Virus record (IMG/VR): IMGVR_UViG_3300028399_000004
Span: 1 to 44,863 of that record
From: a virus
Reading direction: 5' to 3' (one strand)
DNA: 44,863 nucleotides
Positions 17,681-32,258 of this stretch are shown here, in pieces. How positions within the stretch are numbered: the first letter of the stretch is position 1; every line of letters starts with the position of its first letter. The translations under genes and the position numbers were made by a program. Below the pieces are notes generated by a model. That model was not told the DNA's origin. It did no database searches and saw nothing but the letters and a program-made list of their open reading frames with translations.

Positions 17681-17983
17681 ATGAATGATGTAATTACAGA
17701 AACAGAAGCGCAAGAAAAAACAGATTATGGCAGCCGGGTGGGAGTTGATCCTGTTGTTATAAACCGTGACGATTTCGAGGAAATGATAGGCACATATAAG
17801 CTGCCAACGACAAGCCCCTTTATCTATGCAAAGTATAAAGGCCGGTGGGTTGAAGTTGTTGCAGAGCGCAGATTATCTGGAGTAATGTATTTCTTCTTCC
17901 CCGGCATGAGCAATGCCTTGATGAGTGAATGCATTACGGGTATTTGCTTGCCTGTAAACAGAGCTGAAATAGCAGGGTTATAA
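17681..17983 (+). CDS. Cassette gene, unknown function
   Basis: A 100-residue protein, not recognised, whose TAA lies within the R'' box of an attC site, as in integron cassettes. A GCTAAC just before it (17654) may be the remains of the preceding junction. The sequence contains an FIYAKYKGRWVEVVAERR segment that may be an OB- or SH3-like beta core. It opens the first + run of cassettes. Confidence 0.6.
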   Translation: MNDVITETEAQEKTDYGSRVGVDPVVINRDDFEEMIGTYKLPTTSPFIYAKYKGRWVEVVAERRLSGVMYFFFPGMSNALMSECITGICLPVNRAEIAGL

Positions 17984-18075
17984 CGACATAGTTCACCGGG
18001 AGAATGCCGTGCGATAAACCTAAATTACACTAAAAACGTCGCGGCATTCTGTCTGAGTGCAGCGACTTGTTATAC
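17978..18075 (+). other. attC site A
   Basis: A 98-bp site from TTATAAC (R'', containing the stop of the upstream gene) to GTTATAC (R', 18069-18075). A perfect 9-bp inverted repeat AGAATGCCG (18001-18009) / CGGCATTCT (18042-18050) would form the stem. The next gene starts 20 nt after R'. Confidence 0.75.
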
Positions 18076-18095
18076 GTGTACGGAGTAATGAAATA

Positions 18096-18338
18096 ATGAT
18101 GGGGAATTATATTAGATGGGCCATTCGGTTTACGCATTTGCCAACGGGCGAATCTGTGGTGTTGGATTCAAACCATTTTAGATCACAACATAAAGCGCGT
18201 GAAGCGGCAATTAAACTAATCAGATCACGCCTGTACGCTAAGCGTATAGCGACACCAGCCCGCGAGATTGCCGCATATGATTTGCCTAACAATGATCAAT
18301 TCCCAAATGATTTGACAGAGTATAGGTGTGACGTATAA
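18096..18338 (+). CDS. Cassette gene, basic unknown protein
   Basis: This 80-residue basic protein starts at ATG 18096 (a GGAG lies 12-15 nt upstream). It is flanked by attC A and attC B, and its TAA is part of the B site's R'' box (GTATAAC). It contains HLPTGESVVLDSNHFRSQHKAR in its centre, seen as a likely short beta-then-helix fold. Not recognised. Confidence 0.6.
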   Translation: MMGNYIRWAIRFTHLPTGESVVLDSNHFRSQHKAREAAIKLIRSRLYAKRIATPAREIAAYDLPNNDQFPNDLTEYRCDV

Positions 18339-18419
18339 CGTCGTTTTTAAGCTGCGGCATGATGAACTTGCAGGAAACACGCAGCGCTTTCCCCGTCAGC
18401 TTGAAAAACCTTGTTATGT
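18333..18419 (+). other. attC site B
   Basis: 87 bp from GTATAAC (18333-18339) to GTTATGT (18413-18419). Arms GTTTTTAAGCTG (18343-18354) and CAGCTTGAAAAAC (18397-18409) pair perfectly except for one extra G at 18403, the extrahelical base that guides integron recombination. One of the clearest sites in the window. Confidence 0.9.
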
Positions 18420-18439
18420 GTAGTTGAGGAGAAGTTGAA

Positions 18440-18616
18440 ATGGTAGATGAAACTGAATTTGATATAATTGATGCGGACGATAGAAGTGAGCATAGTACCT
18501 GCGATGATTGTATATACTTTACCGGTGAAGAATGTGATGGATTCGTGAACGAAGGCTCAGAAAGGTACGCAGACGATGATATTTGTGAGGATTTTGAGCC
18601 GAAATTAAACACATAA
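18440..18616 (+). CDS. Small acidic cassette protein
   Basis: A 58-residue, very acidic protein with four or five Cys: CDDC (21-24), CD near 32-33 and a C at 49, perhaps metal binding. A GAGGAGAAG sequence precedes the ATG. It lies between attC B and attC C, and its stop is within the R'' box ACATAAC. Acidic proteins of this size may mimic DNA, which is speculation. Confidence 0.6.
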   Translation: MVDETEFDIIDADDRSEHSTCDDCIYFTGEECDGFVNEGSERYADDDICEDFEPKLNT

Positions 18617-18657
18617 CTTATTAATATCAGGCATGTTTTCCTTGATATTGGTTATAT
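18611..18657 (+). other. attC site C (short type)
   Basis: 47 bp from ACATAAC (18611-18617) to GTTATAT (18651-18657). Arms AATATCAGG (18623-18631) and CCTTGATATT (18640-18649) pair with one unpaired T. Two relatives with altered R' are at 19290-19337 (minus) and 29004-29050. The ssb gene starts 28 nt on. Confidence 0.85.
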
Positions 18658-18685
18658 TATAAAAAATAAAGGCATTGATACGCTC

Positions 18686-19141
18686 ATGAGCAAAGACTTA
18701 AATCAGTGTAATTTCATCGGCCGAATTGGAAAAGATGTTGATTGCAAATATATGCCCAACGGGAATGCGGTTGTGAATTTTAGCATTGCCTGTAGCGATG
18801 ACTACAAAAACAAATCCACCGGCGAAAAGGTTGAGAAAACAAATTGGATAAACATTGTTGCCTTTGACCGCCTGGCTGAAATTATTACCGAATATTGCAC
18901 GAAGGGGTCAAAGGTCTTTATCTCCGGCAAGCAAACCACCAGAAAATGGCAGGACCAAAGTGGTAACAACCGTTACACCACCGAAATAATTGCTAATGAT
19001 CTCCAAATGCTGGACAGTCGTGGTGGTGGCGGTAACTTCAACCAATCGCCAAACCAGGAATCGGGCACTGCTCCGCAGCAGAAACCGGCTTCTTCGACGA
19101 CCGGCGGAATGGACAATTTTGATGACGATATCCCATTTTAG
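18686..19141 (+). CDS. ssb: Single-stranded DNA-binding protein
   Basis: A 151-residue protein with an OB-fold N-terminal domain (residues 1-110; signatures NQCNFIGRIGKD, VVNFSIACSDD, TNWINIVAFDRLAEI, KVFISGKQTTRKW), a Gly/Gln/Asn/Pro-rich linker and the acidic tip DNFDDDIPF that binds partner proteins. It serves replication and the RecT pathway. It is downstream of attC C and faces a minus-strand cassette, so it sits at the meeting point of two cassette runs. Confidence 0.95.
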   Translation: MSKDLNQCNFIGRIGKDVDCKYMPNGNAVVNFSIACSDDYKNKSTGEKVEKTNWINIVAFDRLAEIITEYCTKGSKVFISGKQTTRKWQDQSGNNRYTTEIIANDLQMLDSRGGGGNFNQSPNQESGTAPQQKPASSTTGGMDNFDDDIPF

Positions 19142-19276
19142 GAGTCGTCTTAGCTAGGTTAATGGCAACGGAGGGACTGGATAAGCGCCTTGTTTCGATT
19201 GTCAAAACAGATTTGCAGACTGTATTTATTGCTTTGATTCGTGCAGTTTTCCCCTGTTTCAGCAGGGACGTCCGGT

Positions 19277-19298
19277 GGATTTATTATTAAATAAATCC
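19277..19298. terminator. Hairpin between ssb and the inverted cassettes
   Basis: GGATTTATT (19277-19285) and AATAAATCC (19290-19298) form a 9-bp perfect stem with a 4-nt loop. There is no T run, so it may be a weak bidirectional terminator or a part of the altered attC next to it. The rest of 19142-19276 has no gene. Confidence 0.45.
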
Positions 19299-19337
19299 AA
19301 TATCGAGGCAAACATGCCTGATATTAATAAGTTATGT
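19290..19337 (-). other. attC site D, degenerate R'
   Basis: On the minus strand the site begins ACATAAC (19331-19337), and its arms AATATCAGGC / GCCTCGATATT pair with one unpaired C. Where R' is expected the sequence reads GGATTTA, not GTTRRRY, so the site looks truncated at the array edge next to ssb. It resembles sites C and Q closely. Confidence 0.7.
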
Positions 19338-19643
19338 GTCACTCAACGTTCGCGTGATAAACTCCACTTTATCAACATTTTCTCTCCAATATTGTGAGTA
19401 ACAGAACCCTAATCTATTGTCGTTACATGATTCAATCACAGCATAAACCCCACCAATGAAAATCAGACCGATCACTAATAAAATGGCGAAAACATATGAC
19501 AGTGGATTCCATCGTATGAACACCCAGCAGACCCCATCGCAATCAGGGAAAATATTTATTACCCATATTCGCCATAGAAACCTGCCGAACCAACTCAACT
19601 TAGCAGGAAAATACTCTAATGGGTGCCCGTTTCTAGCGTTCAT
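19332..19643 (-). CDS. Cassette membrane protein
   Basis: The ATG at 19643 has a strong AGGAG upstream and gives 103 residues. Hydrophobic segments, seen in translation about residues 20-38 and 56-78 (YVFAILLVIGLIFIGGVYAVI), suggest two membrane helices. It is flanked by attC E and attC D on the minus strand. Small membrane proteins are common in integron cassettes. Function unknown. Confidence 0.65.
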   Translation of the reverse strand: MNARNGHPLEYFPAKLSWFGRFLWRIWVINIFPDCDGVCWVFIRWNPLSYVFAILLVIGLIFIGGVYAVIESCNDNRLGFCYSQYWRENVDKVEFITRTLSDT

Positions 19644-19658
19644 AAATTCTCCTGAAAC

Positions 19659-19763
19659 ACATAACAAGGCAAATTCACTCCGACAAAATAAAGCGGTGTT
19701 TGCCATGTGTTCTTTTTTAGTTAATTGGCCGCTTTATTTCGCGGGTGATTTGCGACGTTATGC
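19659..19763 (-). other. attC site E
   Basis: 105 bp. On the minus strand it starts with GCATAAC (19757-19763), the stop of the upstream gene included, and ends GTTATGT (19659-19665). Arms GCAAATCAC and GTGAATTTGC pair with one unpaired A, and AAATAAAGCGG / CCGCTTTATTT pair perfectly inside. It is nearly identical to site O at 28037-28141 in the opposite orientation. Confidence 0.9.
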
Positions 19764-19991
19764 GTCATCAAATCCATTGGCTATACACAACGCATGGTTT
19801 ATGTCGGATCGGATTCCATCCCCGCCATCTACTGATTGGGTGCTCCCTCTGTCCGGCGTTGATAGTGCAACATTGTATCCACCGTGCTCCACCTCTATCG
19901 TTATAGTGCAGCCATCTGGTAAGTGTTGCGCGGCACGCTCGATAGCAACATCAATGCTAGGCGGTGTTTCAATCATTTCATATTCGTTCAT
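19758..19991 (-). CDS. Cassette gene, unknown function
   Basis: The ATG at 19991, with GAGAGG upstream, gives 77 residues, beginning MNEYEMIETPPS. The middle has an alternating beta-like segment (CTITIEVEHGGYNVAL) and the end is acidic. It lies between attC F and attC E. Not recognised. Confidence 0.6.
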   Translation of the reverse strand: MNEYEMIETPPSIDVAIERAAQHLPDGCTITIEVEHGGYNVALSTPDRGSTQSVDGGDGIRSDINHALCIANGFDDA

Positions 19992-20012
19992 TTTTCTATC
20001 CTCTCGCATCAC

Positions 20013-20073
20013 GCATAACAAAGCAAATCCAGCAGACAACAAAAAGCGTTGCTCCTGATTTGCGACGTTATAA
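20013..20073 (-). other. attC site F
   Basis: 61 bp. On the minus strand it runs TTATAAC (20067-20073) to GTTATGC (20013-20019). Arms GCAAATCAG and CTGGATTTGC pair with one unpaired G. It starts directly at the end of site G, so no gene lies between them: the 'cassette' is the attC alone. Confidence 0.85.
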
Positions 20074-20144
20074 CTCTACAAATACACCATTTATTCCATA
20101 CCACGTTTATATTGCCTAGCAATCTCAACTATTTGTCGTTATAC
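20068..20144 (-). other. attC site G
   Basis: 77 bp on the minus strand from GTATAAC (20138-20144), which contains the ASCH gene stop, to GTTATAA (20068-20074). The arms ACAAATA/TATTTGT pair but the middle is weaker than in other sites. Shares its last bases with site F. Confidence 0.6.
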
Positions 20145-20453
20145 ACCACTGACCTGTAACACTTTACCAATGCCGATAACAAAATATTTCTGCTCGGCCT
20201 CCAATGTCTCGCCATTATCAGGGGAGCAATACTTTCCTTTAATAATTGCCGCGCCTTTAAATTTGGCGCGAACAAACGGTTTATTTTTTCCGTAGCCATT
20301 AGTAAATCTAATCTCGTCATAGCAGCGGATGCCGTTTTTACAAAGCAATCGAGATATCCAGTGAGGTTTATATTCACGGTATTCAAAAACCTTCTCGCCA
20401 TTGGCTATCAGGCAAAACCATTTTTTTTTCAAGGTAAGCTGCAAAGTTCTCAT
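20139..20453 (-). CDS. ASCH-domain-like protein
   Basis: The ATG at 20453 overlaps the stop of the gene upstream (ATGA), giving 104 residues. The pattern MRTLQLTLKKKWFCLIANGEKVFEYR resembles the start of ASCH domains, which bind RNA or modified nucleotides (motif GEKxxEYR at residues 19-26). A following KGAAIIKGKY segment fits the beta barrel. An earlier in-frame start (20507) lies in the neighbour. Its stop is in the R'' box of attC G. Confidence 0.7.
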   Translation of the reverse strand: MRTLQLTLKKKWFCLIANGEKVFEYREYKPHWISRLLCKNGIRCYDEIRFTNGYGKNKPFVRAKFKGAAIIKGKYCSPDNGETLEAEQKYFVIGIGKVLQVSGV

Positions 20454-20677
20454 AATAAATCTCCATAATAATCTTCGCATTCGCATTTCCCGACGCATCT
20501 GGCACAAAAAGGCGGCTCACCCAGCTTGTCTTCGCAATCACAAAATCCATCGCAAAGACCACCTACCTGTACCCCATAGCAAGGTATTTTCTGGTTGCAA
20601 TTAGGGCAACAGTTACACTGTTTTATCCATTCCGCAACAACATGATTCGGTGGACCGTGTTCTATTTCGTTATTCAT
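20450..20677 (-). CDS. Cysteine-rich protein
   Basis: A 75-residue protein with about a dozen Cys (CNCCPNCNQKIPC, CDGFCDCED, FCARCVGKCECED), suggesting two or three zinc sites or a metal cluster. It lies between the unknown protein at 20702 and the ASCH gene on the same strand. Not recognised beyond the Cys pattern. Confidence 0.65.
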   Translation of the reverse strand: MNNEIEHGPPNHVVAEWIKQCNCCPNCNQKIPCYGVQVGGLCDGFCDCEDKLGEPPFCARCVGKCECEDYYGDLL

Positions 20678-20701
20678 AAATAACCTATAAAATACATTTC
20701 G

Positions 20702-21061
20702 TTATACATATAAACTAACTTCAGTTGCGCCTTTTCTTAGCGCACGTTTCCTTGCGAATACGCATTGTTTTTCGCTGCTTCTCAATATCCTGTCAGCATT
20801 AATTTTAACTGATCTAAATCCAAGTATCCGCAAACGGCTATATTCTGTTTCTGTAAACCATCTCCGCAACTGCTCTAATGTTATGCATCCGCAACCACAA
20901 TGTTCATCCGGCATTATTTCGGTGTGTACATTAAATTCGGGCCATTCCGTTATATACGGCTTCAGATTTTCGTGATCTGGCCTATCCTCAACCCATTTTA
21001 TAGACAGCCCTGGCCTCCAAGGGCCGCGTCCATTTTTATCTTGCACTCTGTAAATATACAT
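20702..21061 (-). CDS. Phage protein of unknown function (YRVQDxxGRGPW type)
   Basis: The 119-residue protein begins MYIYRVQDKNGRGPWRPGLS, a pattern I recall from small phage proteins that may sense or modify host factors. It has HCGCGC in its middle (about residues 54-59). Its stop lies in a GTATAAC box, but what follows before the next gene (25 bp) is too short for a full attC. Confidence 0.6.
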   Translation of the reverse strand: MYIYRVQDKNGRGPWRPGLSIKWVEDRPDHENLKPYITEWPEFNVHTEIMPDEHCGCGCITLEQLRRWFTETEYSRLRILGFRSVKINADRILRSSEKQCVFARKRALRKGATEVSLYV

Positions 21062-21095
21062 ACAATGCTCTCGTATTTACCGCTGCTAATGTCCA

Positions 21096-21299
21096 TTATT
21101 TTGTTGTAGATGCAACGAATTGATCAAAGATCAACCTCCTCATCTTCGTTATTCCCCGCTCCCAGTCCTGCCAGGACCTCATGCTGTATCCGATTAGTTC
21201 GGCAGCTTGGGTCTGCGTGAGCCCGGAAGCGCGGCGTGCGTTCTTGATCATTCTGGTGCTGGGTGGTTTCATTTTTTTCATTCTTTTATTGTAGCACAT
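21096..21299 (-). CDS. XRE-family regulator
   Basis: A 67-residue protein (start 21299, or ATG 21281 for a 61-residue form beginning MKKMKPPS) with a helix-turn-helix: ARRASGLTQTQAAELIGYSM, then RSWQDWERG. It is divergent from the replication gene at 21412. The intervening DNA carries three GTTTACA repeats spaced exactly 10 bp, its likely operator. It may control replication timing. Confidence 0.8.
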   Translation of the reverse strand: MCYNKRMKKMKPPSTRMIKNARRASGLTQTQAAELIGYSMRSWQDWERGITKMRRLIFDQFVASTTK

Positions 21300-21346
21300 G
21301 GAATGTGCAAACAGGAACCCCGTGAATATTTATTTGTTAATTTTTT

Positions 21347-21373
21347 GTTTACAGCCGTTTACATGTGTTTACA
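21347..21373 (+). promoter_or_regulatory. Triple GTTTACA operator before replication genes
   Basis: GTTTACA occurs at 21347, 21357 and 21367, one helical turn apart. A TATACT (21379-21384) lies after them with TTTACA at 15 nt and GTTTAC at 16 nt before, so the repeats overlap a promoter. Further copies are at 21788 (+) and, inverted, at 16498-16504. Confidence 0.75.
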
Positions 21374-21411
21374 ATCGGTATACTGTTCATTCTCATCAAC
21401 CAGGAGTCGAA

Positions 21412-22170
21412 ATGGGATATACAAAGCTTTTCACCGAAATCATCATGTCAACAGTTTGGCGCGAACCAAATCACGTAAGGTTATTGTGGATAACAATGCT
21501 GGCCATGAAGGATCGGTGGCACGTTGTGAACGCTTCTCTGCCCGGTCTAGCTGATTCGGCCAGGATAACCATGGACGAATGTGTTGAGGCGCTAGGTGTG
21601 CTCTCATCTCCGGATAAATACTCTCGGACAGTCGAGCACGAAGGAAGAAGGATAGAAGCCTGTGATGGCGGCTGGATAATACTCAACGGCGAAAAATATC
21701 GAAATAAGATGAGCCTGGATGAGCGCCGGGAATACCAGAGGATCAAACAAGCTGAGTACAGGGCAAGAAAGAAAAGTGTTAAAAGTTGTTTACAAAAAAG
21801 TCAACAATTTACACATACAGATACAGATACAGATACAGATACAAAACCTAAAGAAAAAGCGCCTCCGGCGAAAAAAAGAAAAACAAAAAAATTCAAAAAA
21901 CCAACAATTAACGATGTGAAGGACTATTGCGCAGAGAGATCAAACAACGTTGATGCTGAAAAATTTGTAGATTACTACACATCAAACGGATGGAAAGTTG
22001 GAAAAAATCCGATGAAAGATTGGAAAGCCGCTGTCAGAACTTGGGAGAAAAATATTCATGAAAAAGCTGGGACAGACGGCAGAAGCCGTGCAAAGAAATT
22101 TTCAGACACCCTCGATGAAATCGCGCGAGAAGACATCGAAAAAAACGGATATACCGATTTCGTGGGTTAG
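21412..22170 (+). CDS. Replication initiation protein (O-like)
   Basis: The ATG at 21412 (AGGAG 7 nt upstream) gives 252 residues. The N-terminal part (MGYTKLFTEIIMSTVW, then AMKDRWHVVNASLPGLAD) is like phage O-type or DnaT-like proteins, with a winged-helix-type fold. A low-complexity middle includes (DT)n from a CAGATA repeat and Lys-rich stretches, and a C-terminal domain begins about FKKPTINDVKDYCAER. The P-like gene follows, overlapping by 113 nt. It likely binds the origin inside its own gene. Confidence 0.75.
   Translation: MGYTKLFTEIIMSTVWREPNHVRLLWITMLAMKDRWHVVNASLPGLADSARITMDECVEALGVLSSPDKYSRTVEHEGRRIEACDGGWIILNGEKYRNKMSLDERREYQRIKQAEYRARKKSVKSCLQKSQQFTHTDTDTDTDTKPKEKAPPAKKRKTKKFKKPTINDVKDYCAERSNNVDAEKFVDYYTSNGWKVGKNPMKDWKAAVRTWEKNIHEKAGTDGRSRAKKFSDTLDEIAREDIEKNGYTDFVG
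21816..21899 (+). other. Candidate replication origin inside the O-like gene
   Basis: Four tandem copies of CAGATA (from 21818) are followed by about 60 bp of A-rich DNA (21841-21900), within the coding sequence. Lambdoid origins have iterons then an AT-rich region within O, so this is the analogous layout. The repeats could instead just encode an Asp-Thr linker. Confidence 0.4.
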
Positions 22171-22522
22171 CTCGCTGTTTAAGAAGTTCCAGTGCAGATA
22201 TGGCTACAAATGGACCTCGGCACTGGAGGGCATTGAAAAACAAGCGGTCCAAGAGTGGAAAAACAGACTGTCTGGATTAACCGGCGAGCAAATCAAGCAT
22301 GGCCTTGAATCGTGGGACTCAGACTGGCCGCCGTCGTCCGAAGAGTTCCGCAAAACATGCCTTGGGAAACAAAAGAATGAATTCGGGCTAGATTATGTAC
22401 CGGAATATCACCGTCAGCATCCTGAGAGGCGCAGAGATAGGATTTTGTCTAGCGATGATCGTGACGCAAGGAGAAGAAATCTATCTGCCAACCTGAAGGA
22501 TCTCAAGGGGGCGCTGAAATGA
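22058..22522 (+). CDS. Helicase-loader-like replication protein (P-like)
   Basis: A 154-residue protein overlapping the O-like gene. The region about residues 36-105 fits the P family: a WVSSLFKKFQCRYG start, AVQEWKNRLSGLTG, then SWDSDWPPSSEEFRKTC, where the WPPxxxEF motif is typical. P proteins bring the replicative helicase to the initiation complex. A basic, Arg-rich C-terminus follows. The first 30 residues duplicate the neighbour in another frame, so a later start is possible. Confidence 0.7.
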   Translation: MKKLGQTAEAVQRNFQTPSMKSREKTSKKTDIPISWVSSLFKKFQCRYGYKWTSALEGIEKQAVQEWKNRLSGLTGEQIKHGLESWDSDWPPSSEEFRKTCLGKQKNEFGLDYVPEYHRQHPERRRDRILSSDDRDARRRNLSANLKDLKGALK

Positions 22523-22587
22523 CTTATGGATTTTGTGATCCTAATAAGGTTAATTACTATCTTAAAAAAATTGGCAGATTAGTCTAA
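22519..22587 (+). CDS. Very short ORF before half attC
   Basis: ATG 22519 overlaps the P-like gene stop (ATGA) and gives 22 residues to TAA 22585-22587. The stop lies in a TAATAAC box. It may be a true peptide or a leftover of a cassette gene cut by a deletion. Confidence 0.3.
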   Translation: MTYGFCDPNKVNYYLKKIGRLV

Positions 22588-22609
22588 TAACGTCAGTATT
22601 AACCGGCTT
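22585..22609 (+). other. Half attC site I
   Basis: Begins TAATAAC and continues with a 20-bp segment that matches site N (27716-27735) except for one base. The right arm and R' are missing. A remnant of an attC at the edge of the third run. Confidence 0.5.
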
Positions 22610-22635
22610 GACAACTGAAAATTAGATAGTAAATT

Positions 22636-23031
22636 ATGAGCAAAAATACAACTGAAAACAAGAAAAAGCACTGCGATGGCGAGTCAGAGTTGAATGCTTT
22701 TGTTATGTTTATTTGCTCGGATCTACTTACGAAGCAAGCAGCAGACAAAATTAGAGGAGAAGGAATTGAAATTAAGGTCGTCACTGGAAAGGCGTGGCTT
22801 TTAGGGATCACATTGGGGAATGGACAAACTGTAGCGGCATACCCAATCAGCATATTAAACCCAATAGCGCCACCCAGCATTTACATGACAGATGCAGAGT
22901 GTGATAGAGGCGTAGATAACAGAGAGCCGCCATCGAAAATAGCTAGATCACTTAAGCGGTGGTGCAAAGAAGATGACTTGATACCTAGTATAAAAATTTT
23001 GAAAAAAGCAATTAAGTCTCTTGAAACATAA
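22636..23031 (+). CDS. Cassette gene, unknown function
   Basis: A 131-residue hydrophilic protein without recognised domain. It has a central stretch (GIEIKVVTGKAWLLGITLGNGQ) of beta-like character and a basic C-terminus. Its stop is part of ACATAAC, the R'' of attC K. It starts ~27 bp after half-attC I. Confidence 0.6.
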   Translation: MSKNTTENKKKHCDGESELNAFVMFICSDLLTKQAADKIRGEGIEIKVVTGKAWLLGITLGNGQTVAAYPISILNPIAPPSIYMTDAECDRGVDNREPPSKIARSLKRWCKEDDLIPSIKILKKAIKSLET

Positions 23032-23158
23032 CGCCCAAAATCAACTGCTTGCGGGTGACGGAGACCATATTCCTGAAGCCGGAAAAATGGTCAGCGAAGA
23101 GAAGAAATGAAAACCAAACGCCGACATAGCAAGTCTGCGTGAATTTTGATTGTTATAT
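23026..23158 (+). other. attC site K
   Basis: 133 bp from ACATAAC (23026-23032) to GTTATAT (23152-23158). Arms CAAAATCA (23036-23043) and TGAATTTTG (23140-23148) pair with one unpaired A. The next gene starts 15 nt after R', with GAGGTG as its ribosome site. Confidence 0.85.
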
Positions 23159-23172
23159 AACGAGGTGAACAA

Positions 23173-23433
23173 ATGGCTAGTGATTTAGTAAAGCGATTGA
23201 TAGCAGCAAATGAGGGTGACGAGCAGGCCGCTGGCGGCGATATTTTTTATTTAGCGGCTGAACGTCTAGCTTTCTTAGAGAGCGCGGTTGAACGTCTTTG
23301 CAGTTCGGGAGATGATGCGCTGGAAACTCTTTACAAATGGATGAGAGAAAACGAAAAAACAATTGTCGGTAAAGGCCACGTAAATATCAACAACCTGCGC
23401 ATTGAAGTTAATAGAGCAAAGCTAGTCATATAA
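23173..23433 (+). CDS. Helical hypothetical protein
   Basis: An 86-residue acidic, helix-rich protein (LAAERLAFLESAVERLCSSGDD), comparable in pattern to phage Ea22-like or 'ead' helical proteins. The stop is in an ATATAAC box, but only 25 bp follow before the next start and no R' is present. Function unknown. Confidence 0.55.
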   Translation: MASDLVKRLIAANEGDEQAAGGDIFYLAAERLAFLESAVERLCSSGDDALETLYKWMRENEKTIVGKGHVNINNLRIEVNRAKLVI

Positions 23434-23462
23434 CAAGCGATAACCCAACTGGAGATACTATA

Positions 23463-24023
23463 ATGGCTAACGAAGCCAGAGGGGCGATAGAAATATTGTG
23501 TAAAGAAATTAACGCAATATTTACGCAGAACATGGAGAGCACCGCGGTATTGGTAGGATTCATCAGCGCTATTGTTTCCGAGATTGATGGTATGGTGCGA
23601 ACCGCAAGGCAGCTTTCTCAAATCATTGGAGAAGACGTGCCAGACGAAACAGAAGAAGCTCTTGAGGCGGTTAAGAATGTCTTAAAGCACAGTAACCGAG
23701 AAGAGCTAATTAAGGCCGAAGCAAGAGCCCGCCGTACTGTATATGTGCTAGATGAGGGTCCGTGTAATCATTACGTTGATATGCTTTCCTCTTGTCTTTC
23801 TGCAATAAAATTTGGACTAGAACGGCCATGCTTATCACGCCACCCAGCAGACGCCGCCGATCATGTTTGGAAAAGAAAATATGGGATATCCCTGTTTGAT
23901 AGACACACGTCTGCATGGCGCAAACAATGGACTAGGGATAAATTATATGAAGCCCTAAGTGTTGCGGCTACAGGTAATAACCAAGCCACAGAAACACTTA
24001 ACCAGGAGAAGAAAAATGAGTAA
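23463..24023 (+). CDS. Hypothetical protein
   Basis: A 186-residue protein. The first 80 residues are amphipathic helices; the remainder has CNHYVDMLSSCLSAIKFG and RHPADAADHVWKRKYG segments, a Cys and His rich stretch. Start with GGAG upstream. It overlaps the next gene by 8 nt, so it is probably the first of a three-gene unit ending at attC L. Not recognised. Confidence 0.6.
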   Translation: MANEARGAIEILCKEINAIFTQNMESTAVLVGFISAIVSEIDGMVRTARQLSQIIGEDVPDETEEALEAVKNVLKHSNREELIKAEARARRTVYVLDEGPCNHYVDMLSSCLSAIKFGLERPCLSRHPADAADHVWKRKYGISLFDRHTSAWRKQWTRDKLYEALSVAATGNNQATETLNQEKKNE

Positions 24024-24276
24024 TGAAAGTGGTGGTTTTTTCGGTTCGGATAGTGCAGAAGTTGACTCGAAAGAGCATTTAGAATCTGCTCCGTTACGCA
24101 GTGATGTGTTAATAATGAACGGCGACAAGCGACCTAAAAAGTACGGATGGGCTCCCGGCAATTATTATTGCCTGTGCTACAGGTGCAAGCGTGAATTTAT
24201 AGGCGACAAACGGTCGTGCATGTGCGCTGACTGTGCCTACGGTCATCAAGATGGCGCGCAGAGTAGCGGCCAGTGA
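24016..24276 (+). CDS. Zinc-binding-like small protein
   Basis: ATG 24016 with AGGAG 7 nt before gives 86 residues. The C-terminal half carries CLCYRCKREF and CMCADCAYGH, two Cys pairs with a His, a probable zinc-ribbon as in 'ead/Ea22'-type phage proteins. It overlaps the neighbours by 8 and 4 nt. Confidence 0.65.
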   Translation: MSNESGGFFGSDSAEVDSKEHLESAPLRSDVLIMNGDKRPKKYGWAPGNYYCLCYRCKREFIGDKRSCMCADCAYGHQDGAQSSGQ

Positions 24277-24521
24277 CAGGCGCAGAACTAAAGCGGGCAC
24301 GGCACTCTCTGGGTTTCACTCAGGCTAAGTTAGGGGCCAGAATCGACCTCACCCGCGTGATGGTGGGACAGATGGAGCGTAGAGCAAATCCTGTCCGCGA
24401 ACGAACCGTACTAGCTGTCTGGTGCCTACTGTACGAGGCTGGCGTAGCGCAGGTAGGTGACCGGACAGAAGATATGTTTGATAACGTTGTTTTTAACTTG
24501 CGCACCACAACCTGCAAATAA
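24273..24521 (+). CDS. XRE-family regulator whose end runs into attC L
   Basis: The GTG start at 24273 gives 82 residues with an HTH: MTGAELKRARHSLGFTQAKL, then RIDLTRVMVGQMERRAN (residues about 23-39). The last 14 codons (from 24479) lie inside attC L and encode DNVVFNLRTTTCK; the stop falls after the left arm. Either the original stop was lost or the cassette has always had this ending. Confidence 0.75.
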   Translation: MTGAELKRARHSLGFTQAKLGARIDLTRVMVGQMERRANPVRERTVLAVWCLLYEAGVAQVGDRTEDMFDNVVFNLRTTTCK

Positions 24522-24564
24522 AGGCACAAATGTTACTGCGTCAAGTTGAAAAACTTTGTTATAC
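24479..24564 (+). other. attC site L
   Basis: 86 bp from TGATAAC (24479-24485) to GTTATAC (24558-24564). Arms GTTTTTAACTTG (24489-24500) and CAAGTTGAAAAAC (24542-24554) pair with one unpaired G. The regulator's coding sequence overlaps the left half. Confidence 0.9.
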
Positions 24565-24593
24565 ATGAAAATTTTACTATGGAGTATAGAGAT

Positions 24594-24767
24594 ATGAGCG
24601 CCCACTAGTGTGTGAAACAAACATTAAATGGAATAGCAAACTTAACTGACAATGATCACATTATTGAAATGGTTTGTTTCTGTATTGATAACATTGATGC
24701 AATAAGAAAAGAGCAGGATCGTGATACACGGCATAAATGTGCGAAGGCTGTTTTAGAGTGCCCTTAA
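24594..24767 (+). pseudogene. Cassette gene with an early in-frame amber
   Basis: A GGAG site precedes ATG 24594. The frame reads Met-Ser-Ala-His-TAG, then Cys-Val-Lys-Gln and on for 51 more residues to TAA 24765-24767. Without the TAG (one change from CAG) it would be a 57-residue helical protein. Translation may instead start at GTG 24612. It follows attC L as a first cassette gene would. Confidence 0.6.
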
Positions 24768-24770
24768 GAT

Positions 24771-24833
24771 ATGAGTAGCCATGATCTTAAAAACATGGTA
24801 CATAGAAAATGCATGAACGCAAAGGCTGTATAA
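24771..24833 (+). CDS. Very short ORF
   Basis: A 20-residue reading frame starting 3 nt after the preceding stop and ending within GTATAAC (24828-24834). No ribosome site stands out. It could be the tail of a reduced cassette. No attC structure follows. Confidence 0.25.
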   Translation: MSSHDLKNMVHRKCMNAKAV

Positions 24834-24847
24834 CAACGGTGATGATA

Positions 24848-24997
24848 ATGGACAAGGTTAAATGCCGGAACTGTATGAGTAGCAAACTTCATATTTTTGA
24901 TGAAGAGGATGGCGACTGTATGTTTTTTTGTGATAACGACTACACAGAAACAACAGCCTGCCCTGACAATATAGAGTGCGAGTTTTACGAAAGGTAG
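24848..24997 (+). CDS. Small zinc-ribbon-like protein
   Basis: A 49-residue acidic protein, start ATG 24848, with CRNC at 6-9 and CMFFC and two later Cys. Likely metal-binding. An in-frame ATG at 24809 would add 13 residues but overlaps the short ORF. Function unknown. Confidence 0.55.
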   Translation: MDKVKCRNCMSSKLHIFDEEDGDCMFFCDNDYTETTACPDNIECEFYER

Positions 24998-25072
24998 CCC
25001 GGTTCTGATGATGATTAAAGTTTGCCGAAAAATAGCGTAAAGACACTGTATTTATCCATCGAGGATGTAAAC

Positions 25073-25258
25073 ATGAAAAGAATATTTACATTTGGTTATG
25101 GGCAAAAGAATAGGGGAAGGTTTGTAATTATTAATGGGAATAATCGTGAAGATTGCCGTAATAAAATGATCCAGAGTTTTGGAATGGAGTGGGCGTTTGT
25201 TTATGACGAGTACCGACTGGAAGCGATTAAGCGGAGCGGGTTGAGAGAGTTGAAATAA
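25073..25258 (+). CDS. Small hypothetical protein
   Basis: ATG 25073 with GAGG 12 nt upstream gives 61 residues, beginning MKRIFTFGYGQKNRGRFVII. Short beta-like pattern then a helix. Its stop overlaps the DUF1367 start (ATAATGG). It precedes recombination-type genes and may be in their unit. Confidence 0.6.
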   Translation: MKRIFTFGYGQKNRGRFVIINGNNREDCRNKMIQSFGMEWAFVYDEYRLEAIKRSGLRELK

Positions 25259-25725
25259 TGGCTGAAGTAAATCTACTTAAATTATCAAGTACATCTCTTG
25301 CCCCGGCGACAGAAGAGGATGTTGAAGCTTTGTCGCATATTAAGATTGGCGAGGTAGTACGGTGTAAATATTCGCGCATGAGGAACATTAAGTTTCACCG
25401 TAAATATTTTTCTTTGTTGAACTATCTTTACGATGTATGGGAGCCTGCTGAGGTAGCGGTTGATGACAAACGCTTTGTGCCCGAGAAGAGCTTTGAGACA
25501 TTCAGAAAAAATATAGCGGTGATGTCGGGGTATTATGATACACACTTCACGATAGCCGGAGATCCCCGTATAGAGGCAAAATCGATAAGTTTCGCAAACA
25601 TGAAGGAAGAGGAGTTTGAGAAACTCTATTCGAATACCATTGATGTTGGCCTTAAGCACATTCTTCATAATCACAGCCGAGAGGATGTGGATAACGTAGT
25701 GCAAAATTTGATAGGGTTTATGTGA
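25258..25725 (+). CDS. DUF1367-family phage protein
   Basis: A 155-residue protein with the DUF1367 pattern: LKIG-like segment VVRCKYSRMRNIKFHRKYFSLLNYLYDVW (key: RNIKFHRKYFSLLN near residues 42-55) and a YDTHFTIAGDPRIEAKSISFA middle. The family occurs in lambdoid 'nin'-like regions and may take part in recombination. Followed by the Ref-type nuclease. Confidence 0.8.
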   Translation: MAEVNLLKLSSTSLAPATEEDVEALSHIKIGEVVRCKYSRMRNIKFHRKYFSLLNYLYDVWEPAEVAVDDKRFVPEKSFETFRKNIAVMSGYYDTHFTIAGDPRIEAKSISFANMKEEEFEKLYSNTIDVGLKHILHNHSREDVDNVVQNLIGFM

Positions 25726-26048
25726 TGAAGGGACAAAGCAGGACAAAAGAAGAAATCCGGTATCATGACGCAATATGCGAAATGGGATGTGTAGTCTGCA
25801 TGGATGTGTTTAAAACGTACTCTCCAGGCACCGTGCACCACATCGATGGTAAAACGAAGACCGGCGCTCATATGAATTGTATTTGTCTGTGCGCAAGGCA
25901 CCACCAAGTGGCTTCTGACACGGGCGAATGGGCAACCAGGCATGGGCCCGGGCGAAACACAGGAAAGGCCATGTTCGAGGCTGCATATGGAACTGAACAA
26001 GAGTTGCTGGATAAAACAATGGAATTATTAGGAGTGAATAAAAAGTGA
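25725..26048 (+). CDS. Ref-like HNH nuclease
   Basis: ATG 25725 overlaps the DUF1367 stop. The 107-residue protein has CEMGCVVC near residues 18-25, VHHIDGK (about 38-44) and CLCARHHQ (about 55-62), a zinc-bound HNH nuclease pattern as in P1 Ref-type recombination enhancement nucleases. It would act with RecA or the phage's annealing pathway. The ending is helical. Confidence 0.75.
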   Translation: MKGQSRTKEEIRYHDAICEMGCVVCMDVFKTYSPGTVHHIDGKTKTGAHMNCICLCARHHQVASDTGEWATRHGPGRNTGKAMFEAAYGTEQELLDKTMELLGVNKK

Positions 26049-26350
26049 AGAACATTACTATTGTTGAAATAGGGAAACGGAAAAACAAGCGTGATGCCAG
26101 ATTTAAGGGTACTTTTGAATATTGGGAAAAGTCAATTAATCGGTTATCTGTTTTTGCTGATACTTTTATTGATCCAGGATTTGTTGTCGATGGTTCTATT
26201 GACAAGGTAACTAGGCTGAAAGTCTATAAAGTTTTTAAACGATTTATGAATCAATACAAAGGTGTTATCCATGAAGAAAATCGGCCTTTTTCTTATACTC
26301 AAGAAACTGAGATAAGGAGAGTCCTCTTTGGAGGAACCATATCGTTTTAA
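26045..26350 (+). CDS. Hypothetical protein
   Basis: GTG start overlapping the Ref-like stop by 4 nt. 101 basic residues with helical C-terminal half (RLKVYKVFKRFMNQYKG). Its stop leads straight into attC M. Not recognised. Confidence 0.55.
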   Translation: MKNITIVEIGKRKNKRDARFKGTFEYWEKSINRLSVFADTFIDPGFVVDGSIDKVTRLKVYKVFKRFMNQYKGVIHEENRPFSYTQETEIRRVLFGGTISF

Positions 26351-26408
26351 TTAACGCGCCGCCGAAGGCGGAGCGAAGCGTAGCTCCGCGTGAATTTAAT
26401 TGTTAGGA
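26349..26408 (+). other. attC site M
   Basis: 60 bp from AATTAAC (26349-26355) to GTTAGGA (26402-26408). Inner arms GGCGGAGC / GCTCCGCG pair, and an outer ATTAACGCG/CGCGTGAATT pairing is imperfect. It is the only site with a GTTAGGA-type R' and is GC-richer, so it may come from another integron. Confidence 0.7.
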
Positions 26409-26425
26409 ATTTTTGGTAAAAAGAG

Positions 26426-27718
26426 ATGATAAGAATAGGATACTTGATTTTTAATTATGCATCCGGCAGGTATGGGAACTTTGGCGGAGAGCTGATAAGG
26501 GATATTGTTGCAAAAACCTATGCCGTAGAAAATTGCACTATCGATCAAATAAATAACTACGATGTTGTACTGGTCTCTTTCCCGTCGACACAGCAGGTCG
26601 GTGATTATTATATTGAGGCAAAAAAACACGGCTTACACCGCCGTAAATGCAAAATAATTATTGGTGGTTTCGGGGCGCAAAATGTATCGTTAATCAGAGA
26701 TTATTTTGATTGTGTGTTTTTTGGCCGTGCGCACGATGTAATTATTGAGCTAATAGACAAGTTGCTTGATGGCGATTATATTAGCGAGTATTCATTGTGC
26801 TCTGATTTATCTGGAGTAGCAAAAATAAGGCAAGCACAACTAATCAATAATAATAATTTCATTGAGGAGTTCACCGGCTGCAATCTCAAGTGTAAATTTT
26901 GTCACTATACTTACGCGCGGAAATATACAGGAGGGAGTTCTTCATATGCTCAAACGATGCTTGTCGGTGAGTCCAGCAAAGAAATCCTATACAGAGACAT
27001 ACTTGCACTTTACAAAAAACAGGGAAGATTAAGAACAGCGATAGACGGTTTCAGTGAGCGCATTAGATATGCCTACGGTAAGCGAATATCTAACAAAATG
27101 ATAATTGAAGGGATAAATCATCTTGGAGATTTGTGTGAAAACAATATTGTGATACAAGATATGTTTGGAGGCAGGAAGCCCGAGACAACAGTAATGACTG
27201 TTTATAATATTTGCAATTTCCCAGGCGAGACAGAGCAAGATGAGCAGGAGCTAATTGATACAATTAACTGCGCAGAACCAAAGCAGAGAATTATATTCAT
27301 CTTGCAGAGCACTCCATTTAGACCTTCCGCAGCTACGCCTATGGCGTGGGAACGGGTTAATTTGTTTCCTCAGTGGAGCGACAAGAGAGAAAACACGCTA
27401 GTTGACAGGCACAATTTATTATTCAAATACAGCTACACCTTGGAAGGGTCGTTTTCGCACTTGCTATCTGTCTTGATTGAGCGAGCCAGATATGATGATG
27501 CCAACATAATCGAGAAGTCCATAACAGGGCGCGGACTCAAAGGAGATGCAAAAAATAAAACAAAGCAAATGCTTGAGTTTGATTTGAATCACTACTTATC
27601 TGAGCACGATATAGATGCTCCCCCACCAGTCCCGTACTTAGAAAGTTATATCGGTATGGATAAAATGAGAAAAATAGCTAAGAAGATGAGACATCAAGCG
27701 CAACAATGGGATGCCTAA
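26426..27718 (+). CDS. Radical SAM enzyme with N-terminal B12-binding-like domain
   Basis: The 430-residue protein has an N-terminal Rossmann-like half (residues 1-130: MIRIGYLIFNYASGRYGNFG, GGFG, CVFFGRAHD) like the B12-binding domain of radical SAM enzymes. The iron-sulphur motif GCNLKCKFCHY follows (Cys 152, 156, 159). A long helical C-terminus ends in QAQQWDA. The substrate cannot be told. It lies between attC M and a GCCTAAC half site, so it appears to be a cassette. Large enzymes are unusual as phage cassettes. Confidence 0.85.
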   Translation: MIRIGYLIFNYASGRYGNFGGELIRDIVAKTYAVENCTIDQINNYDVVLVSFPSTQQVGDYYIEAKKHGLHRRKCKIIIGGFGAQNVSLIRDYFDCVFFGRAHDVIIELIDKLLDGDYISEYSLCSDLSGVAKIRQAQLINNNNFIEEFTGCNLKCKFCHYTYARKYTGGSSSYAQTMLVGESSKEILYRDILALYKKQGRLRTAIDGFSERIRYAYGKRISNKMIIEGINHLGDLCENNIVIQDMFGGRKPETTVMTVYNICNFPGETEQDEQELIDTINCAEPKQRIIFILQSTPFRPSAATPMAWERVNLFPQWSDKRENTLVDRHNLLFKYSYTLEGSFSHLLSVLIERARYDDANIIEKSITGRGLKGDAKNKTKQMLEFDLNHYLSEHDIDAPPPVPYLESYIGMDKMRKIAKKMRHQAQQWDA

Positions 27719-27739
27719 CGTCATTATTAACCGGCGCAA
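27713..27739 (+). other. Half attC site N
   Basis: GCCTAAC (perfect RYYYAAC) holds the radical SAM stop, followed by the segment shared with half site I and a small GGCGC/GCGCC hairpin. No right arm or R' is visible before the next gene, so the site is truncated. Confidence 0.65.
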
Positions 27740-27814
27740 GCGCCGAAAGGAATATCAAAATGAACCAGAACGAAACACAGAAGTCAAACAAATCGAAAAG
27801 AGGTTAAGCGGTTA

Positions 27815-28042
27815 TTGCGTGAGGTAACACACCTAGGAAAAAAAAGATCATATGGATACGGCAAGATCATCAATATTGAATACCCTGAGTCAGATAATGA
27901 TTACTCTCTAATAAAAGATGGACTGGCCATGCGCTATTTGCCCGATGATAATGGATATAGAGAGGTAAGGCTTCGTCCGCCATACTGGAATAGGATAGAC
28001 AGGGTGCGGTGTTGCGAAATTGGCGACTGTGTAATCGCCTAA
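27815..28042 (+). CDS. Cassette gene, unknown function
   Basis: The TTG at 27815, with AGAGG 11 nt upstream, gives 75 residues. A 15-residue ORF (27760-27807) ends just before it and may couple translation. The stretch GYGKIINIEYPESD resembles a beta core. The stop lies in GCCTAAC, the R'' of attC O. Not recognised. Confidence 0.55.
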   Translation: MREVTHLGKKRSYGYGKIINIEYPESDNDYSLIKDGLAMRYLPDDNGYREVRLRPPYWNRIDRVRCCEIGDCVIA

Positions 28043-28141
28043 CGTCGCAAATCACCCGCGAAATAAAGCGGCAAATTAACTAAAAAAGAACACAGGGCAA
28101 GCACCGCTTTATTTTGTCGGAGTGCATTTGCCTTGTTATAT
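28037..28141 (+). other. attC site O
   Basis: 105 bp from GCCTAAC (28037-28043) to GTTATAT (28135-28141). Arms GCAAATCAC and GTGCATTTGC pair with one unpaired C; AAATAAAGCGG / CCGCTTTATTT pair perfectly inside. An almost identical site, E, is at 19659-19763 in opposite orientation. Confidence 0.9.
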
Positions 28142-28167
28142 TACGTTTTAATCATTGGAGAATGATA

Positions 28168-28692
28168 ATGACTGTTGAATTTAAAGCATGGGAAAAGATA
28201 CAAAGAAAGAACCCGTTTAACGTAACCATTAGTGAGAAAATAGATGGTACAAATGCCTGCGTAATTATTGCAGATGGTGCGATAGTTGGGGTTCAGTCGC
28301 GGAAGCGATTTATAACGCCAGAGGACGATAACTACGGTTTTGCAGCATGGGTTGAAGAAAATAAGGGTGAGCTATCGACAATGGGTGATGGTTATCACTA
28401 CGGCGAATGGGCTGGGCCTGGCATACAGAATAACCCGCTACAGCTTGAGAGAAAGCACTTGTACCTGTTTAACACCTTCCGCTGGAACGAGAATAACTCA
28501 AACAGGCCAAAATGCTGTGATGTTGTACCGGTACTATATCAGGGGATGCTGAAGCCTGAGACCATTCCAGACTTACTCGAAGAGCTTAAGGGCAAGGACA
28601 CTGATCGAGAGGGGGTTGTTGTGTACTACCACGCTTTTAGAAAGTACACGAAGCATACGATTAAAAGCCCAAATGGAAAATGGTGCAAGTAA
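28168..28692 (+). CDS. RNA ligase (Rnl2-type fold)
   Basis: ATG 28168, with GGAG 8 nt upstream, gives 174 residues. Motifs: SEKIDGTNA (lysine of the KxDGxN nucleotidyl-transfer motif, residues about 21-29), the IIIa-like YGEWAGPGIQ (about 89-98), EGVVVYY (motif IV) and HTIKSPNGKW (motif V lysine). It should seal RNA ends with ATP. The protein is short, so it lacks a large C-terminal domain. It lies between attC O and attC P, as a single-gene cassette. Confidence 0.85.
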   Translation: MTVEFKAWEKIQRKNPFNVTISEKIDGTNACVIIADGAIVGVQSRKRFITPEDDNYGFAAWVEENKGELSTMGDGYHYGEWAGPGIQNNPLQLERKHLYLFNTFRWNENNSNRPKCCDVVPVLYQGMLKPETIPDLLEELKGKDTDREGVVVYYHAFRKYTKHTIKSPNGKWCK

Positions 28693-28741
28693 TATAACGT
28701 CGCATTTAAGCGGCTTGTCCGCTTGAAATTCCTTGTTATAC
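28692..28741 (+). other. attC site P
   Basis: 50 bp from ATATAAC (28692-28698) to GTTATAC (28735-28741). Arms ATTTAAGCGG (28704-28713) and CCGCTTGAAAT (28719-28729) pair with one extra G at 28725. The RNA ligase stop (28690-28692) touches R'' rather than lying within it. Confidence 0.9.
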
Positions 28742-28769
28742 GTTTTATTAACTAAATAGGAGAAAAGTT

Positions 28770-29009
28770 ATGGATAACACACAGAAAGCAATTAACAGCG
28801 TCGTTGAATACAGAGATTTGCCGCATTTGAAAAAAGGGCAGCGCTGTGAAGTTAACGGCAAGCCGGGGAAAATATGGGGCGGCAATCATGCTGCAAATTT
28901 AAACGTATTATTTGACGGCGATAAGCGATTAGCGAACTGTCACCCGAATTACAAGATGAGGATTTTTAATGACAGTGGCGAGATTGTCTACGCGAGTGAT
29001 GACGTATAA
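28770..29009 (+). CDS. Cassette gene, SH3-like small protein
   Basis: A 79-residue protein with a barrel-like pattern in the middle (LKKGQRCEVNGKPGKIWGGN, then NLNVLFDGDKRLANCHPNYKM), typical of short SH3-like folds. It starts after AGGAG and ends in GTATAAC of attC Q. Similar proteins are common in integron cassettes. Function unknown. Confidence 0.7.
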   Translation: MDNTQKAINSVVEYRDLPHLKKGQRCEVNGKPGKIWGGNHAANLNVLFDGDKRLANCHPNYKMRIFNDSGEIVYASDDV

Positions 29010-29050
29010 CTTATTAATATCAGGAATGTTTGCCTTGATATTAGATATTA
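29004..29050 (+). other. attC site Q, degenerate R'
   Basis: Begins GTATAAC (29004-29010). Arms AATATCAGG (29016-29024) and CCTTGATATT (29033-29042) pair with one unpaired T, as in site C. At the R' position AGATATT replaces GTTATAT. Like site D it stands at the outer edge of a cassette run. Confidence 0.75.
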
Positions 29051-30345: not shown

Positions 30346-30613
30346 CAGTTACGTGCTCAATGAAAATGACTCTTCGTGCACAAGTACGGTCAACAAATCG
30401 CGCCAGCTCATTCCCACAGGTCTTTACATCATGCGAGCGTGCTCTACCAAAAAAATCATCGTATTGTGGATTTTGTTCAAAAAATTTATCTTTTGCATTT
30501 TGGCAGCCCAATTCCGCGACCTCAAACGTTTCATCAAGATTTACAGTAGCGTAGCCATCCTCGGTTTCTGCTTCGTTGTAATTTACAGGACCGGTTATTT
30601 TGTATGTATACAT
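30338..30613 (-). CDS. Hypothetical protein
   Basis: A 91-residue acidic protein with AAGGAGGAAAG before its ATG. Starts MYTYKITGPVNYNE; no domain recognised. The middle contains CQNAKDKFFEQNPQYDDFFG. Same operon. Confidence 0.55.
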   Translation of the reverse strand: MYTYKITGPVNYNEAETEDGYATVNLDETFEVAELGCQNAKDKFFEQNPQYDDFFGRARSHDVKTCGNELARFVDRTCARRVIFIEHVTDA

Positions 30614-30640
30614 TATCTTTCCTCCTTATGTTGATTTTTG

Positions 30641-30925
30641 TTAATCATTGCAAACGCCGCGAATATCACCAAAATCAATGACATATACATCGTAACGCTG
30701 ATCCCCTCTGCGTGGTTGCACTGATGCAATAATCAAACTATTGTCATTATGGGTAATTTCGCCATATTCGTTGTAATTTTTAACGGCGCGCAAAAAATCA
30801 TTAATTGTGTCATGGGTAAAAACAACATTGCATCCATATTCGTCGTCAACCATGCAGCTGGAGCAACCCATTTCCACAAAAGCGTTTTCAATTTCTTCAT
30901 TCGTCATTTTGGTAAGGTCTTTCAT
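30641..30925 (-). CDS. Hypothetical acidic protein
   Basis: A 94-residue acidic protein with AGGAGG before ATG. Contains a CSSCMVDDEYGCNVVF stretch and a DNSLIIASVQPRRGDQRYDV segment. Not recognised. Small acidic genes like this in early operons are often host-takeover proteins, which is only inference. Confidence 0.6.
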   Translation of the reverse strand: MKDLTKMTNEEIENAFVEMGCSSCMVDDEYGCNVVFTHDTINDFLRAVKNYNEYGEITHNDNSLIIASVQPRRGDQRYDVYVIDFGDIRGVCND

Positions 30926-30943
30926 GATTTCCTCCTATTTTTT

Positions 30944-31483
30944 TTAAGCGTTTAATGCGCTTTGGATTTGGCGGGCAGTTTCAGCCTTTTTTTCTTCTGC
31001 GATTTTTGCGGCTACCTCAGGATGAACAGCGTCAAAATCTCTTAATTTGGCTTCGGCGTCGCGCACAGCATGTTCCGCCTTATGTGATTCGTGTAACCCA
31101 GTATCTTCTGCATAATCCCGCTCGCATGCAACCTCCCAAGCGTCACATGCTGCACTAATAGCGTATACCAACTCTTCACGTTCGCGGGGGAGCCGTACTT
31201 CTGGTCGGTTATAATACGCCTCTCTCGCCTCTTCAATCATGGCAGGTTCGTCTCCGTATAAGCAGATCTGATAGTTCCAGATTACCTTGGCGCCCTTCTC
31301 TTCCATCGCCCGCACAACCTCCCCTGCCCGGGGATCTTCCCGAAGATCGTCGATAGTACAGATACCTACCATTGACTGGGGTCGTTTTACATCTCCGTCG
31401 ATATCAAATACAGGCTCGCCGTTTGTCATGGTGCAGGTAAGTGTGCGGCCGTCGTTCAATGTGCGAGAAAATAGTGTAGTCAT
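30944..31483 (-). CDS. Hypothetical protein, first of leftward operon
   Basis: The 179-residue protein starts MTTLFSRTLNDGRTLTC and has a mixed first half and a charged helical second half (EAKLRDFDAVHPEVAAKIAEEKKAETARQ). Likely coiled coil at the end. It heads the minus-strand operon; a weak promoter-like TTGTCC-17-TATCTT lies upstream (about 31530-31560). Function unknown. Confidence 0.65.
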   Translation of the reverse strand: MTTLFSRTLNDGRTLTCTMTNGEPVFDIDGDVKRPQSMVGICTIDDLREDPRAGEVVRAMEEKGAKVIWNYQICLYGDEPAMIEEAREAYYNRPEVRLPREREELVYAISAACDAWEVACERDYAEDTGLHESHKAEHAVRDAEAKLRDFDAVHPEVAAKIAEEKKAETARQIQSALNA

Positions 31484-31634
31484 TTCCGTGTATCCTTTTT
31501 GGCTTTAGGTCTTGGCTAGTTCCTCAACCGTTAAAGATATTGTATATCACAGTGGCGGACAATGCAACTATTATTTATCAAGACGATACAAATAAGTGTA
31601 GGAGTATTTTTGCAGAAGAATACGAGGAAATAAA

Positions 31635-31667
31635 AAAGCCCGGCATCCGTGGAGGATATCGGGCTTT
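31635..31667 (-). terminator. Rho-independent terminator (leftward)
   Basis: Arms AAAGCCCG (31635-31642) and CGGGCTTT (31660-31667), extended by ATCC/GGAT, form a strong stem. On the minus strand it is followed by six Ts. It would end a minus-strand transcript arriving from the right, for which no gene is seen; this suggests an RNA gene or protects the next operon from read-in. Confidence 0.75.
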
Positions 31668-32258
31668 GTCATGACCAGCACTATGGGTTATACTGGACAA
31701 GTTCGGATCAGGTTTAGCGGCCATCCGATGAGAGCATTTTATCCCTAAACGTGTCTTTCTTCAAGTTTTCTTTCTTTTCGCCGCAAAACTGACCAAACCG
31801 CTGACGGGTAAACCAACAGTTGAGCGATATCAACGCAGAAAACCACAAATTGGGCGCTTGGGCCGGTGCCAACGGAAACAAAATCGGGCTTAATCTGGAC
31901 ACATTGGGATGGCTGACCGCCTGCCGAGGATGGCAACGGTTCCGAACAATACGATTTGTGGTTTTTACAATATGATTTACTGAGATTATGGATTATTTTG
32001 GCGTGTGGTATTTATTGGGCGAGGGGTTTGTTTCTTGGTGTCCAGTAAAGGCCCATTAGTCACCTGTGAGCCAATTATTTTACTGTCCGCAGGTCAACGT
32101 TAATCCCACCTGAGCTGCATGGCACCCAGATGATCCGTCCGTAATAAAAAAATGGGCGAATATAGATCATATCTAATTATAGGTGTGGTTAATATTTAGT
32201 CAAATAGTGACGGCTCACCCTGATTATAGGTCGCAATTATCCTGATGGTAGATTAAAC

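Follow-up and report, generated by a model that had tools for sequence, protein, structure and literature searches.

Integron cassettes with inverted gene polarity in the early region of a tailed phage without an integrase, probably exchanged through host integrases

How can integron gene cassettes lie between the genes of a tailed phage that encodes no integron integrase, and what would move them? The question is raised by one IMG/VR virus record (IMGVR_UViG_3300028399_000004), analyzed over its whole length of 44,863 bases (hereafter the window). Genuine attC recombination sites were found in its early region, together with blocks of genes joined at G|TT cores. The most probable reading, in our judgment, is that of an integrase-less tailed phage whose blocks of genuine cassettes are exchanged by a host integrase acting in trans, with a repeated sequence, element E, as the entry point.

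The sites were searched with filters off, using a covariance model (R1) trained on 11 attC sites, all from outside the window: four of E. coli class 1 integrons, three of phage TJE1, and one each of phage H101, zetaproteobacterial, Scalindua, and phage G009 origin. R1 identified nine attC sites in the window at E-values from 8e-8 to 0.02, all within positions 17,978-28,741, and the strand opposite to each scored much weaker. After these nine, the best match was the other strand of the site at 28692-28741 (E-value 0.07), and a weak tenth site was placed at 23026-23158 (12.1 bits, E-value 1.4); the rest of the window gave no match better than about 0.7, the best remaining being 0.75. A strict arm scanner recovered six window sites, against 0.075 per Markov shuffle, while with a tolerant one seven sites of the region reached a score of 10 or higher, the shuffles giving 0.75 each at a score of 9.5 or above; the earliest arm scan, with over-strict arms, gave zero sites. 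When folded as single-stranded DNA (ssDNA), the sites took the standard attC shape, with paired R boxes, unpaired spacers of 3-5 nucleotides (nt), extra-helical bases in the L boxes, and a terminal part that varies between sites. The conserved AAC and GTT of the R'' and R' boxes were seen to pair by scanner, folds, and model alike.

Few such sites were found beyond the window. R1 gave no passing match on the relatives G001 and G005, and only a single match across 1.1 Mb of other phage loci. Because relatives of the replication protein, terminase, and RNA ligase contained zero strict sites, the hairpins are not common to these phages in general. Among 31 viral matches to a generic attC pattern, only G009 was upheld by the scanner, and a further pattern set returned three contigs, none with covariance-model matches. 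An Rfam search gave no attC match. Within the window, the sites at 19659-19763 and 28037-28141 are 95% alike; for the latter, no similar DNA was found in plasmid records and phage records gave only a 20-base chance match.

Each integron cassette begins with a core that pairs with the R'' box at its far end, and the two boxes of one hairpin derive from different cassettes. In nine window units, hand-picked by position, the two ends of a gene shared 6-10 core bases (mean 8.4), versus 3-6 (mean 5.0) for the two ends of a hairpin, a contrast reached in 0 of 20000 permutations. The site at 22585, which the covariance model found after this test, added a previously unseen core match of 9 bases. The same contrast was observed in the control arrays of E. 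coli class 1 integrons, TJE1, and the zetaproteobacterium; since class 1 integrons show this signature, the window units, each with one attC and matching end cores, are read as cassettes recombined at the core. An earlier note on this DNA had described attC sites and cassettes in a phage early region, and had proposed a covariance model on both strands and ssDNA folding as checks; its description was borne out by the nine sites with E-values below 0.03, by the folds, and by the core matches.

The polarity of these cassettes is inverted. In known attC sites, such as that of E. coli aadA1, the extra-helical base lies in the arm beside the stop codon of the upstream gene, whereas in the window it was found in the opposite arm. 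R1 likewise scored the strand opposing the genes at 41.6 and 39.2 bits, against 17.2 and 10.3 for the gene strand of the same sites. Because both the extra-helical bases and the covariance model place it there, each attC is assigned to the strand opposite its gene. This opposition of site and gene holds for all nine significant sites, in plus- and minus-strand blocks, and 0 of 6 scored window units were co-directional. The earlier note had correctly placed the one unpaired base, without exception, in the arm on the GTT side when the site is read along the gene; its view of gene orientation as normal is reversed here, as the box that it called R' is R'' by sequence and by extra-helical bases. 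Among bacterial arrays (150 genomes plus controls), 122 units were co-directional, 4 opposite, and 19 unclear, versus none co-directional, 10 opposite, and 2 unclear in the window, G009, and H101 combined (122:4 against 0:10, Fisher 2e-12). Polarity was judged from extra-helical bases, covariance-model strand, the break in a shared csf3 fragment, and the position of element E; complementary gene ends were rejected as an indicator, since both polarity readings predict them. The attC is located upstream of the start codon, and the recombinogenic bottom strand is the coding strand. This assignment agrees with the better recombination of bottom strands reported for phage attC sites (PMC9892861). 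The features of the region are as follows.

17978-18075, minus strand: attC upstream of the gene at 18096-18338 (R1 19.5 bits, E-value 0.021); its core matches the stop-side core of that gene over 9 nt.
18096-18338, plus strand: cassette gene for a weakly RF-1-domain-like protein (PHROG matches; Pfam RF-1 E-value 1.3e-7 on a longer frame, under the curated cut-off).
18333-18419, minus strand: attC (R1 39.2 bits, E-value 3e-7; gene strand 10.3 bits; ssDNA fold).
18440-18616, plus strand: cassette gene of 58 amino acids (aa) with no family match; GTTATGTGT is common to both end cores.
18613-18655, plus strand: element E copy 1, one of three, adjoining the stop-side core of the array in an attI-like position.
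18686-19141, plus strand: single-strand DNA binding protein gene ssb (PHROG_44, E-value 1e-54), between inverted E copies.
19290-19339, minus strand: element E copy 2 (inverted).
19332-19640, minus strand: cassette gene beside E copy 2; cores share GTTATGTGT.
19659-19763, plus strand: attC (R1 27.7 bits, E-value 2e-4; fold z -4.3 and -5.6).
19758-20020, minus strand: cassette gene; cores share GTTATGCGT.
20013-20073, plus strand: attC (R1 39.6 bits, E-value 2.4e-7).
20139-20507, minus strand: PHROG_625 gene of the minus-strand array (PHROG E-value 1.6e-17; weak ASCH match).
22585-22708, minus strand: attC (R1 22.6 bits, E-value 0.0036); its core equals the stop end of the gene over 9 nt.
22706-23031, plus strand: cassette gene, cores GTTATGTTT at both ends; its start is set inside the listed open reading frame (ORF), as the longer start lies within the attC.
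23026-23158, minus strand: weak attC (R1 12.1 bits, E-value 1.4; arm scanner score 10).
24479-24564, minus strand: attC (R1 36.1 bits, E-value 1.7e-6; fold z -2.6).
26337-26408, minus strand: attC (R1 24.2 bits, E-value 0.0015).
26426-27718, plus strand: cassette gene for a radical SAM/B12-like protein (weak Pfam and NCBIfam matches).
27713-27739, minus strand: half attC, R' side only (repeat family D1/D2).
27815-28042, plus strand: C-terminal fragment of csf3 (type IV CRISPR Cas5), 84% identical to Csf3 of phage G009.
28037-28141, minus strand: attC (R1 24.9 bits, E-value 0.001).
28157-28692, plus strand: cassette gene for an RNA ligase, start approximate (Pfam PF09414 E-value 4.5e-15 on ORF 28114-28692); cores share GTTATATTAC.
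28692-28741, minus strand: attC (R1 41.6 bits, E-value 8e-8; gene strand 17.2 bits).
28770-29009, plus strand: final cassette gene (79 aa) of the array on the right; cores share GTTATACGT.
29006-29048, plus strand: element E copy 3 at the right end of the array, partly common to G001 at the homologous locus.

Two further attC-like sites adjoin at 20069-20143 with no gene between them, resembling an empty cassette.

Element E, of 34-43 bp, has three copies, each lying immediately behind the stop-side core of a block's final gene, and its junction on the attC strand reads AATAAG|TT. One of these copies is the site near 18612 that the earlier note had listed as an attC (its site C), which it is not clearly. 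The ssb gene is flanked by inverted E repeats of 50 nt (18609-18658/19290-19339) and is positioned elsewhere in the relative G001; its relocation through the array ends (18609-19339) is possible. E is probably native phage sequence, since G001 has part of it at the homologous locus, on the upstream side of the gene that corresponds to gene 29249. Also in G001, at 14150-14480, the gene left of a partial E copy is flanked by GTTATGAG at both ends and may be a decayed cassette. In the window, E occupies the place of attI at the array end three times without a clear known attI sequence, and it may be an attI-like or attG-like entry point. In attG-type integration, where an array ends at nothing more than a G|TT of the backbone, the result would resemble the E junction. 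Unlike such attG events (named in PMC12901181), the window has a repeated element of 34-43 bp followed by multi-cassette arrays. Since the cassette genes read towards E, they could not be driven by a promoter located on that side.

The surrounding genome encodes a contractile-tail phage gene set, including sheath, baseplate wedge, large terminase, head protease, RecE, and RecT, and a DNA methyltransferase gene of the phage backbone is found at 11224-12141. A direct terminal repeat of 127 bp at the window ends makes a complete genome the most likely interpretation of the record. A Pfam search of the whole record for tyrosine recombinases (PF00589) gave no match, while all control genomes were positive. 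The lack of an integrase claimed by the earlier note is confirmed in this sense, and the same search of the complete genome revealed no intI gene near the arrays, as an integron would have. The window instead has the composition of a cluster of attC sites lacking an integron integrase (CALIN), with at least two attC sites and no integrase. Its cassettes occur in separate blocks interspersed with conserved phage genes, and the relative G001 contains neither attC sites nor cassette blocks.

Cassettes of this kind were found in other phages. The earlier note had proposed a search in related phages, which was negative for the relatives G001 and G005. Phages G009, H101, and G161 do have attC sites. 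G009 (IMGVR_UViG_3300032260_000011) has little in common with the window, as their terminases are 25% identical and only one weak short match was found besides. However, the two share a 75-aa csf3 fragment (84% protein and 74% DNA identity), in which the DNA match stops within 6 bases of the core, beyond which the two phages have different attC sites. At G009 30389-33663, a type IV CRISPR-Cas-like csf2-csf1-cysH-csf3 segment is bounded by two attC sites whose cores have 9 bases in common; as judged by these cores, it is a predicted multi-gene integron cassette in a phage, and its csf1, csf2, and csf3 matches, of which csf3 is the strongest, are all under curated cut-offs. The phage contig G161 (IMGVR_UViG_3300031949_000035) included 21 attC sites, all on one strand. 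By ORF length alone, 9 of its units would be opposite, 5 co-directional, and 5 unclear; every family-matched gene opposes its attC (an endolysin, several DNA methyltransferases, a Mom-like modifier, a helicase-loader-like protein, and others). Orientation in G161 and TJE1 was taken from homology-supported or annotated genes, as ORF length alone misjudges both. Four plus-strand attC sites were identified by the model in phage H101 (KR534323) at 25919-27987, with minus-strand GenBank genes between them, and a single attC-like site of reversed polarity lies between two genes of another phage (L119, 7847-7901). Since TJE1 keeps the normal polarity, the reversal is a strong tendency among phage cassettes and not a rule.

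Under the favored reading, each cassette would comprise one gene, at times more, plus one attC, and during infection a host integron integrase would act in trans, with single-stranded bottom strands as its substrate, so that cassettes could pass among phages and hosts. Arrays would begin at E as an attI-like or attG-like end. If transcription enters opposite E, only genes reading towards E would be expressed, and reversed cassettes would be the ones retained; such genes could be transcribed with the neighboring phage genes. The core signatures and the phage-shared csf3 fragment support the earlier note's suggestion that phages carry and swap cassettes, and make swapping by a host integrase plausible. 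Several points weigh against this reading. The analysis establishes attC sites, matched cores, inverted polarity, and a genome without a tyrosine recombinase, whereas a host enzyme, an entry point at E, and any present activity are inferred. The units of the core test were selected by hand, some window sites are partial or decayed, and no window cassette was found in any bacterial array. The reversal is not universal, as phage TJE1 shows. Additionally, E has no clear L box of known attI sites, the block at 22.6-25.0 kb has no E, and no E was found beside cassettes in other viral contigs, where matches to it were due to chance.

The lack of an integrase and the visible decay, in half sites and in empty or truncated units (27713, 23430, and the csf3 fragment), would also fit an array taken over in one piece from the chromosomal integron of a host and now carried by the phage as inert DNA. 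This origin is considered unlikely: the cassettes are dispersed in blocks between conserved phage genes, their polarity is the reverse of bacterial arrays, most cores still match, and the cargo includes genes of phage type, such as that for the RNA ligase, a protein whose relatives occur in other phages without any attC. Hairpins whose main role is structural, at the RNA or DNA level, during phage transcription (as terminators, processing signals, or spacing signals) and which merely resemble attC would explain the intergenic location of the sites after stop codons, and attC sites have been suggested to hold weak terminators (PMC9892861). Yet a model trained on attC sites only detects them with the correct strand asymmetry, core pairing tracks genes rather than hairpins, which terminators do not need, and the close relative G001 lacks the sites, leaving this explanation with very little probability. 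Slighter still is the chance that a recombinase other than IntI, for example an unrecognized phage enzyme, moves the cassettes and favors the opposite polarity common to several phages without integron integrase, as the sites resemble ordinary attC down to the canonical features of their strands, the tested H101 attC recombined with IntI1 with the bottom strand more active (PMC9892861), and no candidate for an alternative phage-encoded recombinase was found, serine recombinases not being searched.

Among known systems, the window shares its attC architecture, core boxes, one gene per cassette, and matched gene-end cores with class 1 and sedentary chromosomal integrons, and differs in the absence of intI, in having only a putative attI, and in genes inverted relative to attC. 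It belongs with the phage CALINs, which are likewise attC clusters with cassettes and no integrase in virulent phages. Integron components in phages are already known: 17 attC clusters without integrase were described, and IntI1 recombined five of six phage attC sites tested (Qi et al. 2023, PMC9892861). While that work calls the layout of TJE1 and PH101 typical and same-direction, genes were found to oppose attC in the window, in G009, in G161, and also in PH101 as annotated in GenBank. The present analysis adds the core signature, element E, a fragment common to unrelated phages, and up to 21 sites per phage; reversed polarity, phage-type cargo, and exchange between phages extend the known CALINs.

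Precise single-gene swaps in the mosaic genomes of lytic phages are mostly attributed to homologous or illegitimate recombination. The matched-core arrays suggest that genes can move singly by site-specific recombination, along a path connecting phages with bacterial integrons. More tentatively, phages may keep their own inverted-polarity pool of phage-useful cassettes (DNA methyltransferases, a Mom-like modifier, an endolysin, an RNA ligase, and a type IV CRISPR-Cas operon), which host integrases would swap gene by gene, with the coding strand recombining. Reversed polarity would then be a marker for this phage-side pool, and it predicts that recombination uses the coding strand of an early operon that is transcribed.

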